From NCBI RefSeq assembly GCF_015207425.1, contig NZ_JADEWZ010000003.1:62001-126000 (forward strand): 64,000 nucleotides of DNA. Reading direction: 5' to 3'. Source of the stretch: Lusitaniella coriacea LEGE 07157. GTDB taxonomy: Bacteria; Cyanobacteriota; Cyanobacteriia; Cyanobacteriales; Spirulinaceae. The number at the start of each line of letters is the position of its first letter. The stretch's first letter is position 1. A model generated the notes under the pieces. The model was not told the origin of the DNA. It saw only the letters and a program-made list of their open reading frames with translations, and ran no database searches. The position numbers were made by a program, and so were the translations under genes. Positions 3,438 to 59,135 of this stretch are shown here, piece after piece.

Positions 3438-4967
3438 CTAAGCTCTGGCTTCGATTTGTCGCACGACGGTTAAGGCAGAATAACTCACACCTGCGGTTCC
3501 TTCTCCGGGATGGGTGGAGTCGCCCACTAACCACAAATTAGCAATGGGAGTGCGCGGTGCAAAGCCGAAGGGCCCAAAGGTGGAAATGCGCTGTCCGATG
3601 CCGCCGACGTAGCCTTGGGCGCGATCGGTGAAACGGGCGAAGGTGCGCGGGGTTGCGGCTTCGATGTGGAGGATGGTTTCAGGGGTGAGATTGAAATATT
3701 GTCCCAGGAGCGCGATCGCGCGATCGGTATAGTCTTGTTTCAAACCCTCGTACTCTTCTGAGTTTGCATCCCACCAAGGACGCACGTCTACAAAGGAGGA
3801 GGCAATTAGGGTAGCTTTCCCCTCTGGCGCGCGCCCATCTCCCGGTTTGCTGACAGAGACGAAGAGGGAATTATTCTCGCCAATTGCCCCTTTATTGTCG
3901 TAGAGGAATTGCAGGTGTGGGGGACAGTTTTCGGGAATCGCCGCGCGATCCACGCCCAGATATACCACAAAGGCACCGGAAGGGGATGGAAGGTTCTCAA
4001 CGCGCCGTTTGTAGCGATCGAGTTCCGGAATGGGCGATCCCTGGAATAATTGTCCTAAATTCTGTACGGTGACATTTGCCACGACGAGATCCGCCGTTTC
4101 TCGCCAGGTTTTCCCGGTTTTAATATCTCGTACGGTTACACCTGTCGCGCGATTGGATTCAAGGTGAATTTCCTCAACAGAATGGCGCGTCAGGAGTTTT
4201 CCCCCATAACGGCATAAGGCTTTCTCCAAACAATCGCTCAAAACTTGCATACTCCCTTGTAGGTGGTATAACCCTTGGGGTTCCTGGGAGAGTCCTAACG
4301 CTGTTGCTGCGTACAAAAGCGCGGTTTCATCGGCATTCACCTGAGAATAGAGCTTGAGTTGCAAATCTAAAAAAGTTTTTAACCGCTTATCTTTATCGAG
4401 GCGCAACAAGCGCAAAATATCCCCAACACGCAGGAAGGTGAAAGGAAAGGTAATCAGGGTGTCGCTGCGAATTGCCGAGAGGAGTTGCCAAAGATCCCAA
4501 AGGTTGCGCGGAGGCAAAATCGGATCGCGCAGTTGAAATTTCCAACTCGCCTCAAATAAAGCGCTCATTAATTGCCAAAAGGGTTCGCTTCCGGGGAATT
4601 GTCGCTGTCGTTCGGCTGCCCATTTTTCGCGATCGCGCCAAACGTTGATGGGTTCCTCTTCTCCCGGTAAAAAGACGGCACAAGCGGGATCGCAGGGGGT
4701 TGCTGGGGGAACTTCTACGCCGAGTTCGTCAAAAATGCGTTTGTGGATGCCTCCAGGTTCTAATCCCGCGACTTGGGTTGCACCAACATCAAAGGTAAAA
4801 CCGCGCCGCTTAAAGGTTGAGGCGCATCCTCCCGATACGAAGGCTTGCTCGAAAATAGTCACTTCATAGCCGCGACGGGCGAGTAATGCGCCAGCCGTGA
4901 GTCCGCCGATTCCCGCACCAATAACAATAACGCGGCGAGAGTTGTGAGGTTGGGATGAACTGGGCAT
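3438..4967 (-). CDS. crtD: Carotenoid C-3',4' desaturase (CrtD-like)
   Basis: FAD-dependent phytoene-desaturase-family enzyme of 509 residues. The N-terminus carries the dinucleotide-binding motif VIVIGAGIGGLTAGALLARRGY followed by the family segment FVSGGCASTF and FDVGATQVAGLEPGG. The C-terminus has LVGDSTHPGEGTAGVSYSAL, the usual FAD-contacting end. The wording of the first 80 residues fits the cyanobacterial CrtD group, which desaturates the 3',4' position during myxol glycoside synthesis, rather than CrtH (cis-carotene isomerase) or CrtO (ketolase). It would act at membranes. It stands alone between gyrB and a kinase gene. A related CrtH-type function cannot be fully excluded from sequence alone. 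Confidence 0.82.
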   Translation of the reverse strand: MPSSSQPHNSRRVIVIGAGIGGLTAGALLARRGYEVTIFEQAFVSGGCASTFKRRGFTFDVGATQVAGLEPGGIHKRIFDELGVEVPPATPCDPACAVFLPGEEEPINVWRDREKWAAERQRQFPGSEPFWQLMSALFEASWKFQLRDPILPPRNLWDLWQLLSAIRSDTLITFPFTFLRVGDILRLLRLDKDKRLKTFLDLQLKLYSQVNADETALLYAATALGLSQEPQGLYHLQGSMQVLSDCLEKALCRYGGKLLTRHSVEEIHLESNRATGVTVRDIKTGKTWRETADLVVANVTVQNLGQLFQGSPIPELDRYKRRVENLPSPSGAFVVYLGVDRAAIPENCPPHLQFLYDNKGAIGENNSLFVSVSKPGDGRAPEGKATLIASSFVDVRPWWDANSEEYEGLKQDYTDRAIALLGQYFNLTPETILHIEAATPRTFARFTDRAQGYVGGIGQRISTFGPFGFAPRTPIANLWLVGDSTHPGEGTAGVSYSALTVVRQIEARA

Positions 4968-5258
4968 TGGAAATAGAGTTAAGTATTGTTAACCCTATTG
5001 TAAACATTTGTTGTATGGTCATCAGCTCTCAGCCGTCAGTCATCAGAAGAATTACGCTTAATGTGTATTAGAAGCTAAAGCCCTTATTCTGCGGTAATTT
5101 CTTCTAACTCTTCCCTGTTCTCTGTCTTGCCGAGCGTTCCCTTGCGCCTTCCGGCGGCGCGGGGTCTTGGCGCTGTTCCCTTCTCCTAGCAAGGGTTTTA
5201 GGGTGTTCACATCAGGCGTAATTGGTAATTGCGAATTGAGGTTGACAAACCCGCAGTC

Positions 5259-9521: not shown

Positions 9522-10175
9522 ATGCTGCAACCGATCTTCAACCCAACACAACAATCGAACTATAAAGTTTTATGTTTGGGCGCGCACTGCGATGATATTG
9601 AAATCGGTTGTGGCGGCACGCTTTTAAAATTGATAGAAAATTATAATATTTTCGTTCATTGGGTTATTTTTAGCTCCAATCCCCAAAGAAAGCAAGAAGC
9701 ACTCGCCAGCGCAAATCTTTTTTTACAGAATGTCGATCGCAAACAAATAATAATCAAAGACTTTAGAGACGGATTCTTACCTACTCAAATCGTAGAAATC
9801 AAAGAATATTTTGAACAACTCAAAAAAGAATTCTCTCCCGATATTATCTTCACTCACTATCGTCACGATCTGCACCAAGACCATCGCCTCATTTCCGATT
9901 TAACTTGGAATACATTTAGGAATCATTTTATTTTAGAGTATGAGATTCTAAAGTATGACGGAGATTTAGGAAACCCAAACTTTTTTACTGCATTAGAAGA
10001 ATCTCATTGCAGTCGCAAAATTGAATATATTCTCTCGGCATTTGAAACGCAAAAAAACAAACATTGGTTTGAAGAAGAAACCTTTCGCTCTCTTTTGCGG
10101 ATTCGAGGCGTTCAATCGAATGCACTACATCGATATGCGGAGGCATTTTATTGCCGAAAAGCAATCATTTTTTAA
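9522..10175 (+). CDS. PIG-L family (LmbE-like) deacetylase
   Basis: A 217-residue protein of the GlcNAc-PI de-N-acetylase/LmbE family. LGAHCDDIEIGCGGTL is the zinc-binding segment (the family usually reads HPDDxE, here HCDDIE, with the Asp and Glu kept). HYRHDLHQDHR provides the second His cluster. Members remove acetyl groups from GlcNAc-type substrates using zinc. It follows the nucleotidyltransferase by 23 bp, suggesting that the cassette product is an amino or formerly N-acetylated sugar. The substrate is inferred only from context. Confidence 0.88.
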   Translation: MLQPIFNPTQQSNYKVLCLGAHCDDIEIGCGGTLLKLIENYNIFVHWVIFSSNPQRKQEALASANLFLQNVDRKQIIIKDFRDGFLPTQIVEIKEYFEQLKKEFSPDIIFTHYRHDLHQDHRLISDLTWNTFRNHFILEYEILKYDGDLGNPNFFTALEESHCSRKIEYILSAFETQKNKHWFEEETFRSLLRIRGVQSNALHRYAEAFYCRKAIIF

Positions 10176-56340: not shown

Positions 56341-56979
56341 ATGCAGATGTACGAACAGATGGAACTGTGGCGAGATCGCGCAGAGAATGTCGAACGAAAT
56401 GGAAAAGTTATCCTATCAACCAATGGTGAAGTGATTTTGTACGAAAATTTCTTCACAGCCAAGGAAAGCGATCGGCTATTCAACAATCTACATTCTCATA
56501 TTCAATGGCAACAAGATACCATTCAAATGTTTGGCAAGTCCATTCCTTTACCCCGGTTAACGGCATGGTATGGTGACGAAGGGAAGTCTTACACCTACTC
56601 AGGAATTAAACAATATCCAAAGCCTTGGATTCCCGAACTTTCTCTGATTAAAAACAGAATCGAACAGGTTGTAAAAGTAAAATTCAATAGCGTTCTCCTC
56701 AATCTTTATCGTAATGGAAAAGATGGAATGGATTGGCACAGCGACGACGAGCCAGAACTTGGGAAAAACCCGATTATTGGATCGGTTAGTTTTGGTGGAA
56801 CTCGCCGTTTTTTATTGAAACACAAGAAAATGAAAGTGCAAAAAATCGAGACTAAATTATCTCATGGTAGTCTTTTGTTAATGTGCGGTGAAACTCAACA
56901 TCACTGGCAGCATAGGGTTCCCAAAACGGCTAAAACAGTGGAGCCTCGAATCAATCTCACATTTAGAATTATTCATTGA
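56341..56979 (+). CDS. AlkB-like 2-oxoglutarate/Fe(II) dioxygenase
   Basis: A 212-residue AlkB-family protein. The iron ligands lie in HSDDEPELG (H-x-D) and in HHWQHRVPKT (distal His); the 2-oxoglutarate-binding Arg lies in RINLTFR. LTAWYGDEGKSYTYSG and IGSVSFGGTRRFLLKHKK are typical. It repairs alkylated bases (1-methyladenine, 3-methylcytosine) by oxidative demethylation. Closely followed (30 bp) by a Rossmann-type protein gene in the same direction. Confidence 0.92.
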   Translation: MQMYEQMELWRDRAENVERNGKVILSTNGEVILYENFFTAKESDRLFNNLHSHIQWQQDTIQMFGKSIPLPRLTAWYGDEGKSYTYSGIKQYPKPWIPELSLIKNRIEQVVKVKFNSVLLNLYRNGKDGMDWHSDDEPELGKNPIIGSVSFGGTRRFLLKHKKMKVQKIETKLSHGSLLLMCGETQHHWQHRVPKTAKTVEPRINLTFRIIH

Positions 56980-57009: not shown

Positions 57010-57912
57010 GTGGAAAGGCTGTATGAATATATCCTGAATGGGATAAAAAGTTCGAGAAAATTTTACGATTCAAGGACTAAGGGTTCTTTTGAAAATTACC
57101 TCACATCTTTACAAGCTTCAGTCAGAGAACTGAGAAACTCTTATCGGTCGAGTTATGTTGATGTTGACTACTCAAGACCTGCAATACAAGCAGCTTATTT
57201 AATTGCGTATTACCCTCACTATGTCGAGATGAATCTTGAAATTCTGAGATTACTTTCCTCAGAATTAAGTTACGATCGCGAAATTAAGGCTTGTTTTTTC
57301 GGTGCGGGTCCTTGTCCCGAACTTGTGGGTTTAGCACAATTGTTAACAGAACGTTCCCTAAAGACGAAAAGGGTTACTGTAAATGCCTACGATATCGCTT
57401 CGGATACATGGACTTTAAGCCGGGAAATCACGCGCAAGTCTATCGTTCCGAATTTATGGCAAGGAAGGCTTACTTTAAATAGCCAAAGTCTAGATTTCAA
57501 TCGAAGGAAATCATTTTTTATTATTCAACCTAATCTTCAGGACTGCAATCTTTTTGTATTTCAAAACTGTCTGAATGAAATAGTAGAGCGCTCGGTTTTG
57601 CTAGAAAACGTTGAGTTTTTAATCAATAATATCTCCAGGGGGAGTTTTATTATTTTTGCCGATCTTCTCTACAAGCAAAATTCGATTGTGTTTGAAGCAA
57701 TCGGAAAAATGGTCAATTCGCGATACGATTTTGAGATTTTTCAAGAAAGAACTTTAACGATTACATCCTCTTTGCGCATACCCCGCGCGATCGCGGAAAA
57801 TCTACTGACTGGAAAACGTGGATTAATCCCACGCTCTAAAACTAATTTTATGTTTTTAGCGCTCCGTAAGGGCAAAAAGATCAGAGACAATTACGACGAT
57901 ATTCCTTTTTGA
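57010..57912 (+). CDS. Putative Rossmann-fold (methyltransferase-like) protein
   Basis: A 300-residue protein with a GTG start. ACFFGAGPCPELVGLAQLL at about 95-113 looks like motif I of a class I methyltransferase, VNAYDIASDTWTLSREI like motif II, and NLFVFQNCLNEIV like the post-II strand. The N-terminal 90 residues are helical. The substrate is unknown. It may be co-transcribed with alkB. The C-terminal part is basic and does not match a known domain. Confidence 0.65.
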   Translation: MERLYEYILNGIKSSRKFYDSRTKGSFENYLTSLQASVRELRNSYRSSYVDVDYSRPAIQAAYLIAYYPHYVEMNLEILRLLSSELSYDREIKACFFGAGPCPELVGLAQLLTERSLKTKRVTVNAYDIASDTWTLSREITRKSIVPNLWQGRLTLNSQSLDFNRRKSFFIIQPNLQDCNLFVFQNCLNEIVERSVLLENVEFLINNISRGSFIIFADLLYKQNSIVFEAIGKMVNSRYDFEIFQERTLTITSSLRIPRAIAENLLTGKRGLIPRSKTNFMFLALRKGKKIRDNYDDIPF

Positions 57913-58137: not shown

Positions 58138-58482
<345 letters not shown>

Positions 58483-58489
58483 AACTATA

Positions 58490-58640
58490 TCGTCCCGCGC
58501 CCCGACAGCTAAAGCGTACACACTACCATCTGATAAATGGAAGGTTGTAGGTTCGAGTCCTATCGGCGGTATGACTTGCCGCTGTAGCTCAAATGGAAGA
58601 GCATCACGTGAAATTGCTTTGCAAACTTGCGCGGGATTAT
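58490..58640 (+). ncRNA. tRNA-like RNA with circularly permuted parts (YrlA-type Y RNA or permuted tRNA), copy 1
   Basis: Parts in order: closing-helix strand TCCCGCGC (58493-58500), AAAGC (58511-58515), TACACACTAC (58517-58526), hairpin CCAT-CTGATAA-ATGG (58526-58540), T arm GTAGG-TTCGAGT-CCTAT (58547-58563), acceptor 3' strand CGGCGGT (58564-58570), loop ATGACTT, acceptor 5' strand GCCGCTG (58578-58584), TA, D arm GCTC-AAATGGAA-GAGC (58587-58602), GCTTT (58616-58620), and GCGCGGGA (58629-58636) closing with the first strand. The acceptor strands pair 7/7 (two G-U). Spacing from hairpin to T arm equals that of a tRNA, and the loop CTGATAA is an isoleucine (GAU) anticodon loop. The same architecture is known for YrlA RNAs that bind the Ro60 homologue Rsr. 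Confidence 0.8.
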
Positions 58641-58673
58641 CACCTTTAACTCACACCGAATCTGGAGGAACCA

Positions 58674-58874
58674 ATGCTAACCGAACAAAGCAATACGCTA
58701 GAGTGTCCCCAGTGTGGAAAAAAAGTATTGGTTCAGGAAAACGGAACAAAATACACCTGTTTGTGGTGCGATTTTAATCGCGATCTGACTCCAGTACTTA
58801 AAACAGCAGATAAGACTCTACCGTTTTTTTCAGTTCTTGCTTTGATGGCGTTCGTTTTACTCTTCTTGCTGTAG
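58674..58874 (+). CDS. Small zinc-ribbon membrane protein between the two tRNA-like RNAs
   Basis: A 66-residue protein with GGAGG shortly before the ATG. CPQCGKKV and CLWCDF form a zinc ribbon at about 11-35, and the C-terminus is a membrane helix (FFSVLALMAFVLLFLL). A tail-anchored rubredoxin-like knuckle is plausible. No family known. Located between the two tRNA-like RNAs; possible involvement in their function is inference. Confidence 0.72.
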   Translation: MLTEQSNTLECPQCGKKVLVQENGTKYTCLWCDFNRDLTPVLKTADKTLPFFSVLALMAFVLLFLL

Positions 58875-58982
58875 AACAATTTAGCCTTTTTTATTGAAAT
58901 TTTAGATAAGCACTCAGCTTTAAACAGGAGTATTAACTAATCTCTTTTATTCAAAGGCTGAAGGCTGAAAGCTGACAAATTT

Positions 58983-59135
58983 AAAGAGTCGCGCCCTAAC
59001 TTGTAAAGCCTACACACTACTTGGAGCCAAAGGTTGTAGGTTCGATTCCTACCTGCTGCGTTCGCGTGCAGCAGTAGCTCAATGGTAGAGCGTTGGAATG
59101 TGCTTATACTGCTTTGCAAACTTGCGCGACTCCCT
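58983..59135 (+). ncRNA. tRNA-like RNA with circularly permuted parts, copy 2
   Basis: Same order as copy 1: GAGTCGCGC (58986-58994), AAAGC (59005-59009), TACACACTAC (59011-59020), TTGGAGCCAA (59021-59030), T arm GTAGG-TTCGATT-CCTAC (59036-59052), acceptor 3' strand CTGCTGC (59053-59059), loop with a TTCG, acceptor 5' strand GCAGCAG (59068-59074), TA, D arm GCTC-AATGGTA-GAGC (59077-59091), GCTTT (59111-59115) and GCGCGACTC (59124-59132). The acceptor stem is a perfect 7 bp and the closing helix a perfect 9 bp. TTGG after the D arm (59093-59096) can pair with CCAA (59027-59030), as an anticodon stem would. Single-strand blocks TACACACTAC and GCAAACTTGCGCG are identical to copy 1. Confidence 0.8.

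Follow-up and report, generated by a model that had tools for sequence, protein, structure and literature searches.

The window analyzed here, a 64-kb stretch of contig C3 of Lusitaniella coriacea LEGE 07157 (genome of 5.86 Mb in 114 contigs, 99.96% complete), carries two structured RNA cassettes in which a circularly permuted tRNA body is held inside a frame of two helices. We favor, with moderate confidence, the reading that both are Y-RNA-like noncoding RNAs of a dispersed ribonucleoprotein (RNP) containing a Ro60-like protein and that their inserts act as decoys or sentinels against attacks on translation. As judged from sequence, a Ro60-like RNP is the most likely identity of the system; we infer, with less assurance, the decoy or sentinel role of the inserts.

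The permuted order proposed by the initial annotation held in both copies: a T arm, the 3' strand of an acceptor stem, a loop of 7 or 8 nucleotides (nt), the 5' strand of the acceptor stem, and a D arm, all enclosed by an outer helix (Table 1). The acceptor strands pair at 7 of 7 positions in each cassette when G-U pairs are allowed. Cassette 1 has an anticodon-like loop, CTGATAA, and cassette 2 is without a standard anticodon arm. A permuted-core search of the whole window returned exactly these two cassettes, both on the plus strand, compared with a total of 9 matches in 30 dinucleotide-shuffled windows (0.3 per window). Moreover, a search for the full cassette placed the same two above the cut-off, with one low-scoring place on the opposite strand, and 30 shuffled windows gave 1 match above the cut-off. 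An Rfam scan of the window at standard cut-offs gave no match, and ARAGORN reported no tRNA in the window. Under relaxed settings, the Rfam YrlA model (RF02553) scored 40.0 bits on copy 2 and 31.0 bits on copy 1, against a gathering score of 69.

What the cassettes share is the frame. The closing helix P1 (for example, CGCGC/GCGCG) leads to an internal loop with CCYAAC on the 5' side opposite ACUU on the 3' side and then to P2, a helix of at most 9 bp that ends in AGC/GCU and is followed by UUACAUAC and the insert. When the loci of relatives were read side by side, the frame was constant and the inserts were interchangeable. The 3' ACUUG of the frame is similar to the corresponding 3' strand in the YrlA consensus and in vertebrate Y RNAs. 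A finder that used the frame alone, constraining P1 and the inner end of P2, recovered 382 distinct cassettes in 100 loci, namely, 20 genome stretches and 80 named loci. The 3' ACTT occurred in 376 of 379 cassettes; the finder itself imposed the middle CT. Among 261 distinct P2 helices, two freer positions were paired in 81 to 83% of cases, against 46 to 64% for shuffled partners; one position stood at 81% against 46%, and the outermost position, at 39% against 45%, was not above chance. Moreover, the acceptor stems of the permuted class covary strongly, and the covariation that the initial annotation read from the two copies alone extends to relatives. Of 50 such cassettes picked blind to the acceptor, 48 paired at 7/7 and 2 at 6/7. 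The 32 distinct acceptor stems averaged 6.94 pairs, against 4.89 for shuffled partners, and the best of 1,000 shuffles reached 5.44.

The cassettes stand in a locus marked by sp1, a conserved small open reading frame (ORF). The first searches, with DNA and Rfam models in 59 genomes (its own included), produced many short-loop permuted cores, and the YrlA model at an E value of 0.01 also matched in 9 of 14 control genomes. Because the control matches probably arise from tandem tRNA genes, we relied on genomic context. Tandem ordinary tRNA genes were tried as the source of the permuted matches and rejected; they fit several matches in tRNA arrays but not the isolated, framed cassettes. Of 20 stretches retrieved, 15 (that of the window among them) have sp1 or a relative (61 to 73% identity) ahead of the RNAs; of the remaining five, four had been cut out around arrays of tRNA genes and the fifth next to a TROVE gene. 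Nearly all named organisms with the locus are cyanobacteria, among them the cultured strains Fischerella muscicola PCC 7414, Cylindrospermum sp. NIES-4074, and Calothrix sp. NIES-4101. Among the 80 named loci (1.107 Mb), picked by sp1 alone, 77 have a cassette downstream of sp1, at a median distance of 37 nt. Of the three others, one had no recognized sp1 end, one offered 90 bases of downstream sequence, and in one (L174) none was found. All 342 cassettes in the named loci lie on the sp1 strand, and none lies on the opposite strand. Detected cassettes per sp1 locus had a median of 4 and a maximum of 10, and 19 cassettes lie upstream of sp1. The dedicated locus foreseen in the initial annotation was real and indeed understated, and one of the small proteins said to alternate with the RNAs, sp1, is conserved. 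The other, sp2, is not: among the 20 stretches compared, none of the 19 from elsewhere contained a homologue (best E value, 0.32). Its family matches all fell below cut-off, and sp2 may be a passenger.

The candidate partner of the RNAs is a family of proteins of approximately 477 residues, encoded downstream of sp1 in 69 of the 80 named loci and typically directly after the array. The protein combines a helical part with a vWA domain that has a DKSGSM motif. An AlphaFold2 model of the Cylindrospermum member (L156) had a mean predicted local distance difference test (pLDDT) score of 84.6 and a predicted template modeling (pTM) score of 0.75. The 12 best Foldseek matches of the model were all Ro60, Rsr, or TROVE chains (best E value, 7.2e-14), and its best VIA match had a Z score of 22.0 with a root mean square deviation (rmsd) of 4.4 over 439 aligned residues. 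Ten Ro60-type VIA entries scored from 19.5 to 22.0 over 418 to 441 residues, compared with 15.8 over 158 residues for the best vWA-only chain. The family is thus predicted to have the Ro60 fold over the whole chain. Pfam on four members gave mainly subthreshold or weak matches to vWA and other families, and the TROVE family PF05731 did not match any of the four at an E value of 0.5. One member matched a PDB sequence named "TROVE domain-containing protein" at 9.3e-4, and hhalign of the family against six cyanobacterial TROVE proteins gave an E value of 2.4e-4 and a probability of 43.7. The initial annotation had suggested looking for a TROVE (Rsr) gene elsewhere in the genome. A search of this genome with PF05731 found no such gene, but a member of the family with the predicted Ro60 fold is encoded at C13:93815-95245 on the minus strand, with a 73-nt cassette about 200 nt upstream.

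The gene and the RNAs are linked in two ways. First, among the 59 genomes, sp1 was found in 22 (one match each, L. coriacea included) and the Ro60-like gene in 24 (weakly in G051), and all 22 sp1 genomes have the gene. Among 386 cyanobacterial genomes, sp1 occurred in 25 and the gene in 29, and 24 of the 25 sp1 genomes shared both. Four genomes without sp1 (G165, G206, G240, and G418) have partial or interrupted Ro60-like matches, and three of the 24 genomes with both have split or interrupted genes (G120, and G020 and G147 at contig ends). Second, a cassette ends within 350 nt upstream of 54 of 66 testable Ro60-like genes in the named loci. Of these, 41 are at 57 to 131 nt, and 33 are short, at 68 to 94 nt; among the 12 genes missed, at least L153, L160, and L188 show an upstream cassette by eye. 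Such a cassette is partly expected because the array precedes the gene. On contigs without sp1, an upstream cassette was also found for 6 of 8 testable genes, our genome's own among them (present in L201, L202, L204, L205, L208, and L210; absent in L206 and L207). Because the scaffold, often in its short form, lies directly upstream of the protein's own gene, the Ro60-like protein likely binds the frame and autoregulates.

What the frame carries is varied. By pattern rules over the 382 cassettes, 139 inserts are unpermuted tRNA cores (D, anticodon, and T arms, with the frame in place of the acceptor), and 71 are permuted tRNAs. Another 48 are short, 33 of which have a hairpin with a 7-nt loop, most of them anticodon-like by eye. 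Resemblance to helices 69 to 71 of 23S rRNA (H69-71) was assigned to 23 inserts and to the sarcin-ricin loop with the GTPase center (SRL-GAC) to 6. Classes K and Q, with 8 and 6 cassettes, matched nothing recognized. The remaining 81 fell outside the rules; by eye, many are tRNA or H69 variants and two are SRL-GAC. We note that class K (L157, L142, L177, and others) carries TACGCTGCAAGCC, that class Q (L116, L135, and others) carries GAAGCCGTCTTCAGGC, and that 102-nt cassettes in L158 and L170 hold two anticodon-like hairpins in tandem. The tRNA-gene array of L. coriacea (L062, contig C76) contains two more cassettes of the same frame on the minus strand, at 4848-5053 and 9713-9837; one is an SRL-GAC mimic, and one is a hairpin of T arm and acceptor without a D arm.

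The rRNA-like inserts were compared with 23S rRNA. In an alignment of 16 SRL-GAC RNAs, one of them from the tRNA-array contig of this genome, TACGAGAGGA is invariant and stands together with the GTPase-center region in every member. Double changes occurred in 14 of 40 predicted pairs in that alignment and in 20 of 34 pairs in an H69-71 alignment (14 of 17 listed), the rows in both being related and the changes therefore not independent events. In four aligned H69-class cassettes, 26 to 33 nt around AACTATAACGGTCCTAAGGTAGCGA closely match the 23S rRNA of the L. coriacea genome, and by eye the H69 mimic is itself permuted, as TAAGAACGGCCGTA near its 3' end is the 23S sequence that precedes H69. 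The GTPase-center part exceeded the cut-off of Rfam large-subunit rRNA models, with 54.3 bits in this genome and 54.6 bits in L186. We conclude that the H69-71 and SRL-GAC inserts are 23S-like at the level of sequence. A permuted transfer-messenger RNA (tmRNA) was also considered as an identity for the RNAs and was rejected: the D arm, with its GG and 4-bp stem, argues against it, and the Rfam permuted and cyanobacterial tmRNA models gave subthreshold matches alone, at one related locus.

Among the unpermuted cores, 126 of 139 have a recognized anticodon arm, with U33 required. These 126 carry 36 anticodons, 24 of the arms have A34, and in 14 the anticodon is the complement of UAA or UAG. There is a purine at position 37 in 121 arms and an A at position 38 in 93. 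Between similar cassettes (525 nonindependent pairs), the anticodon triplet mismatched at 41.7%, the D arm at 6.7%, and the T loop at 7.1%. Moreover, in pooled close pairs the triplet differed more than the fourfold sites of the Ro60-like gene, at 0.259 versus 0.135 and at 0.500 versus 0.262. From these comparisons, the triplet appears to be either unconstrained or diversifying while the shape of the arm is kept.

The system is also carried by phages and plasmids. A direct scan of viral contigs with sp1 gave no match, and phage copies were located through the Ro60-like protein, on two IMG/VR contigs (L221 and L222) at 47 to 49% identity. L221 has a relative of sp1 (28% identity; E value, 9e-14) and at least 3 cassettes, and two of its 15 tRNA calls are themselves cassettes; L222 has one permuted cassette. 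The 595-kb phage record LR756511.1 encodes relatives of sp1 and of the Ro60-like protein, and a loose scan gave six frame-like matches on its plus strand and one on its minus strand, with approximately 0.3 chance matches per strand expected from shuffling. Finally, sp1 was found on two cyanobacterial plasmids, and the one inspected has three cassettes.

Some loci add further genes. Paralogues of L7/L12 are found in 16 of the 80 named loci, and paralogues of EF-Ts are found in 7. A check of ten genomes showed two L7/L12 genes in each of the seven with the locus paralogue and one in each of the other three, and a second EF-Ts in four of the ten; the genome of the window has one of each. A 275-residue family is present in 19 of 80 loci and an E1/ThiF-like family, one member of which Pfam confirmed as ThiF, in 15; others, among them proteins of 113, 150, and 228 residues, are present in fewer. 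LR756511.1 encodes a 297-residue relative of the 275-residue family (33% identity) and a Prok-JAB protein. The E1/ThiF-like gene and the JAB-family gene of the phage locus hint at a ubiquitin-like pathway. An alignment of 61 sp1 sequences has 15 invariant residues, and no Pfam or NCBIfam family came near its cut-off. In the AlphaFold2 model of sp1 (pLDDT, 87.6), the order of elements fits a beta-grasp (ubiquitin-like) protein, and the structural matches, weak throughout, include MoaD, the best in VIA (Z score, 5.9; rmsd, 2.9; 63 aligned), and ubiquitin; the best Foldseek E value was 0.14. The model thus suggests, weakly, that sp1 is of the beta-grasp type.

How the parts could work together may be outlined as follows. 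Each RNA, as its sequence shows, combines a constant two-helix scaffold with a variable insert that mimics some part of the translation machinery. The Ro60-like protein would bind the scaffold, including the one upstream of its own gene, which would provide autoregulation. Agents directed at the anticodon arms or bodies of tRNAs, at the SRL, at the GTPase center, or at H69-71 would be bound by the inserts or would attack them; such agents might be anticodon nucleases and further ribotoxins, whether produced by phages, by competitors, or by internal defense systems. Real tRNAs and ribosomes would thereby be spared, or the damage would be sensed. More speculatively, the putatively ubiquitin-like sp1 and the E1-like and JAB-like genes of some loci might tag or release captured proteins. 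The insert classes that could be named correspond to sites that ribotoxins attack. The decoy or sentinel proposal follows from these inserts, the free anticodon, the translation-factor paralogues, the carriage by phages, and the idea, raised in PMC7790460, that the tRNA-like domain of YrlA might be a competitive inhibitor of an anticodon nuclease. A wider version is possible but doubtful: the system might be a decoy translation apparatus for immunity or self-protection, in which a Ro60-like RNP with a changing library of mimics is joined by decoy L7/L12 and EF-Ts and by ubiquitin-like tagging and is used by both sides of a conflict, cyanobacteria and phages.

Several observations weigh against the favored reading. 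The sequence-level link of the family to TROVE is weak, and the family profile reached an E value of 0.2 against PDB sequences. Thus, homology to Ro60 rests mainly on the predicted fold. The Ro60-like gene of L. coriacea lies on a different contig (C13) from the array. Moreover, the Ro60-like gene is intact in G002, where sp1 is absent, and G362 shows the converse, sp1 with no Ro60-like gene. The triplet excess disappeared in more distant bins (0.333 versus 0.346, 0.413 versus 0.466, and 0.526 versus 0.629), and in disjoint genome pairs it was suggestive, with P values of 0.14, 0.032, and 0.085 at three cut-offs. Because the excess is limited to close pairs and merely suggestive in disjoint pairs, we do not claim diversifying selection on the anticodon. 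Finally, YrlA is reported in PMC7790460 to be uncut by the nuclease, and a decoy fits only if binding occurs without cleavage.

An adaptor role is the strongest alternative, and we regard it as unlikely though worth weighing. Each insert would link the Ro60-like protein with its own enzyme that binds tRNA or the ribosome (an exonuclease, a modification enzyme, or a translation GTPase) and so create specialized machines for RNA decay or quality control, as has been reported for the Y RNA and Rsr of Deinococcus radiodurans. The two-part design, a protein-binding stem plus an effector module, is that of Y RNAs, and PMC7790460 describes a Y RNA that tethers Rsr to PNPase. Moreover, the T loop and D arm, which tRNA enzymes recognize, are the best-kept parts (approximately 7% mismatch). 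Fixed partners of the anticodon arm, however, predict conservation, and anticodon triplets are least conserved of all; nor would decay need mimics of the SRL and GTPase center or paralogues of L7/L12 and EF-Ts. A second alternative, translation control, seems improbable. Here, the mimics would bind the cell's own EF-Tu, EF-G, EF-Ts, and aminoacyl-tRNA synthetases and throttle or store translation under stress, with no toxin involved. The SRL, the GTPase center, L7/L12, and EF-Ts do all concern the factor-binding site, but patchy spread (25 of 386 cyanobacterial genomes) and phage carriage suit a conflict system better.

An ordinary YrlA Y RNA bound by classical Rsr is very improbable. The proposal of a YrlA-type Y RNA in the initial annotation was right in kind, as a relative of the family with the predicted Ro60 fold is encoded in the genome, and the subthreshold YrlA matches fit it. 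Those scores fall well short of the gathering score, however; at the Rfam cut-off, YrlA matched in 0 of 59 genomes, and this genome has no PF05731 gene. Classical TROVE genes occur in 13 of the 59 genomes, in 5 of 22 with sp1 and 8 of 37 without. We conclude that the TROVE and sp1 systems are independent because TROVE occurrence shows no association with sp1, and classical Rsr was rejected as the partner for the same reason and for want of a PF05731 gene. At seven TROVE-adjacent loci inspected, the RNAs were also permuted but had a different scaffold. In these loci (L014, L018, L019, L021, L023, L025, and L028, near 1400 to 1800), the RNAs have in common the repeated scaffold ..TTGCC..GGCCGAAGAATTGAGGGTTATCG.. 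and frequently occur as tandem pairs. True circularly permuted tRNA genes that mature into tRNA, the other reading in the initial annotation, are hardly credible: the arm order, the 7-bp acceptors, and the anticodon-like loop of copy 1 speak for them, but ARAGORN found no gene, a standard anticodon arm is missing from copy 2, acceptor-less unpermuted cores and 23S mimics are held in the same frame, and the anticodons change freely, some of them such that they would read UAA or UAG.

Table 1. Positions of the RNA cassettes, their parts, and associated genes (window numbering unless a locus is given)
Feature	Position	Strand	Remark
Sigma-70-like promoter (TTGACA, 17 nt, TAGTAT)	58139..58167	+	Upstream of sp1; 10/12 matches in consensus scan
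sp1, conserved 66-aa ORF	58282..58482	+	Just 5' of RNA array in relatives
RNA cassette 1	58493..58636	+	Permuted tRNA insert in two-helix frame
Cassette 1, P1 (closing helix)	58493-58500/58629-58636	+	Sequence
Cassette 1, internal loop	58501-58506/58625-58628	+	CCCGAC/ACTT
Cassette 1, P2	58507-58515/58616-58624	+	
Cassette 1, anticodon-arm-like hairpin	58526..58540	+	CCAT-CTGATAA-ATGG; sequence
Cassette 1, permuted tRNA body	58547..58602	+	T arm, acceptor 3', loop, acceptor 5', D arm
Cassette 1, T arm	58547-58563	+	
Cassette 1, acceptor 3'	58564-58570	+	CGGCGGT; then 7-nt loop
Cassette 1, acceptor 5'	58578-58584	+	GCCGCTG
Cassette 1, D arm	58587-58602	+	Loop with GG
sp2, 66-aa zinc-ribbon-like ORF	58674..58874	+	Hydrophobic tail; between cassettes 1 and 2
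RNA cassette 2	58986..59132	+	Permuted tRNA insert in two-helix frame
Cassette 2, P1 (closing helix)	58986-58994/59124-59132	+	Sequence
Cassette 2, internal loop	58995-59000/59120-59123	+	CCTAAC/ACTT
Cassette 2, P2	59001-59009/59111-59119	+	
Cassette 2, permuted tRNA body	59036..59091	+	T arm, acceptor 3', loop, acceptor 5', D arm
Cassette 2, T arm	59036-59052	+	
Cassette 2, acceptor 3'	59053-59059	+	CTGCTGC; then 8-nt loop
Cassette 2, acceptor 5'	59068-59074	+	GCAGCAG
Cassette 2, D arm	59077-59091	+	
L7/L12 and EF-Ts paralogues	L120:9274-9657, L156:10859-11506, others		In or beside array; extra to normal copies
E1/ThiF-like gene	L186:13979-14617		Downstream of Ro60-like gene
JAB-family gene	L229:13646-14122		Phage locus

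Upstream of the array, the promoter-like site before sp1 lies within an inverted repeat, CTTGACAA..TTGTCAAG, at 58138-58179, which could be an operator. The promoter scan itself was weak: it gave 3 sites, and shuffled sequence gave 2.0 on average. Farther upstream of the sp1 locus are a 2OG-Fe(II) oxygenase-family (AlkB-like) gene at 56341-56979 and a gene for a 300-residue protein without a Pfam match at 57010-57912.

In descriptions such as that of PMC7790460, bacterial Y RNAs stand singly or in small numbers next to Rsr and contain a tRNA-like domain. Here, a distinct Ro60-like family is accompanied by arrays, in which up to ten detected RNAs stand behind one sp1 gene. Why the partners of Ro60 proteins imitate tRNA becomes directly testable, since the inserts name candidate targets. 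Moreover, the system connects phages, and perhaps a ubiquitin-like module, with Ro60 biology. It would add an RNA family absent from Rfam, a family of Ro60-like proteins that Pfam TROVE does not cover, and a conserved small protein represented in neither Pfam nor NCBIfam. A literature search, in which key and subscription papers were covered in part, found no description of the system, and the literature on DUF2997/DUF1257 clusters and permuted tRNA in cyanobacteria offered no lead.

Four known systems bear comparison. Circularly permuted tRNA genes of algae and archaea have the same order of tRNA halves, but the RNAs of the window are enclosed by an outer helix. Vertebrate Ro60 and D. radiodurans Rsr (1YVP and 2NVO) share the predicted fold over 439 and 441 residues, with Z scores near 22, but identity is 15 to 17% and PF05731 misses the protein found here. 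The rsr-yrlBA-rtcBA RNA repair operon, as described in PMC7790460, likewise joins a tRNA-mimic RNA to a Ro60 protein, with a decoy-like idea voiced, but its scaffold and gene set are different. Finally, YrlA and Rsr come closest in architecture: an outer stem, an internal loop whose 3' strand is alike (AAACUUG ahead of the closing helix), a permuted tRNA-like module, and a partner that here is predicted to have the Ro60 fold. They differ in that the RNAs of the window score 40 and 31 bits against the 69-bit cut-off and the partner is missed by Pfam TROVE. Moreover, here each locus holds several RNAs, whose inserts also include unpermuted tRNA, anticodon hairpins, H69-71, and SRL-GAC, and the array is accompanied by sp1 and, in some loci, by E1/ThiF and by paralogues of L7/L12 and EF-Ts.

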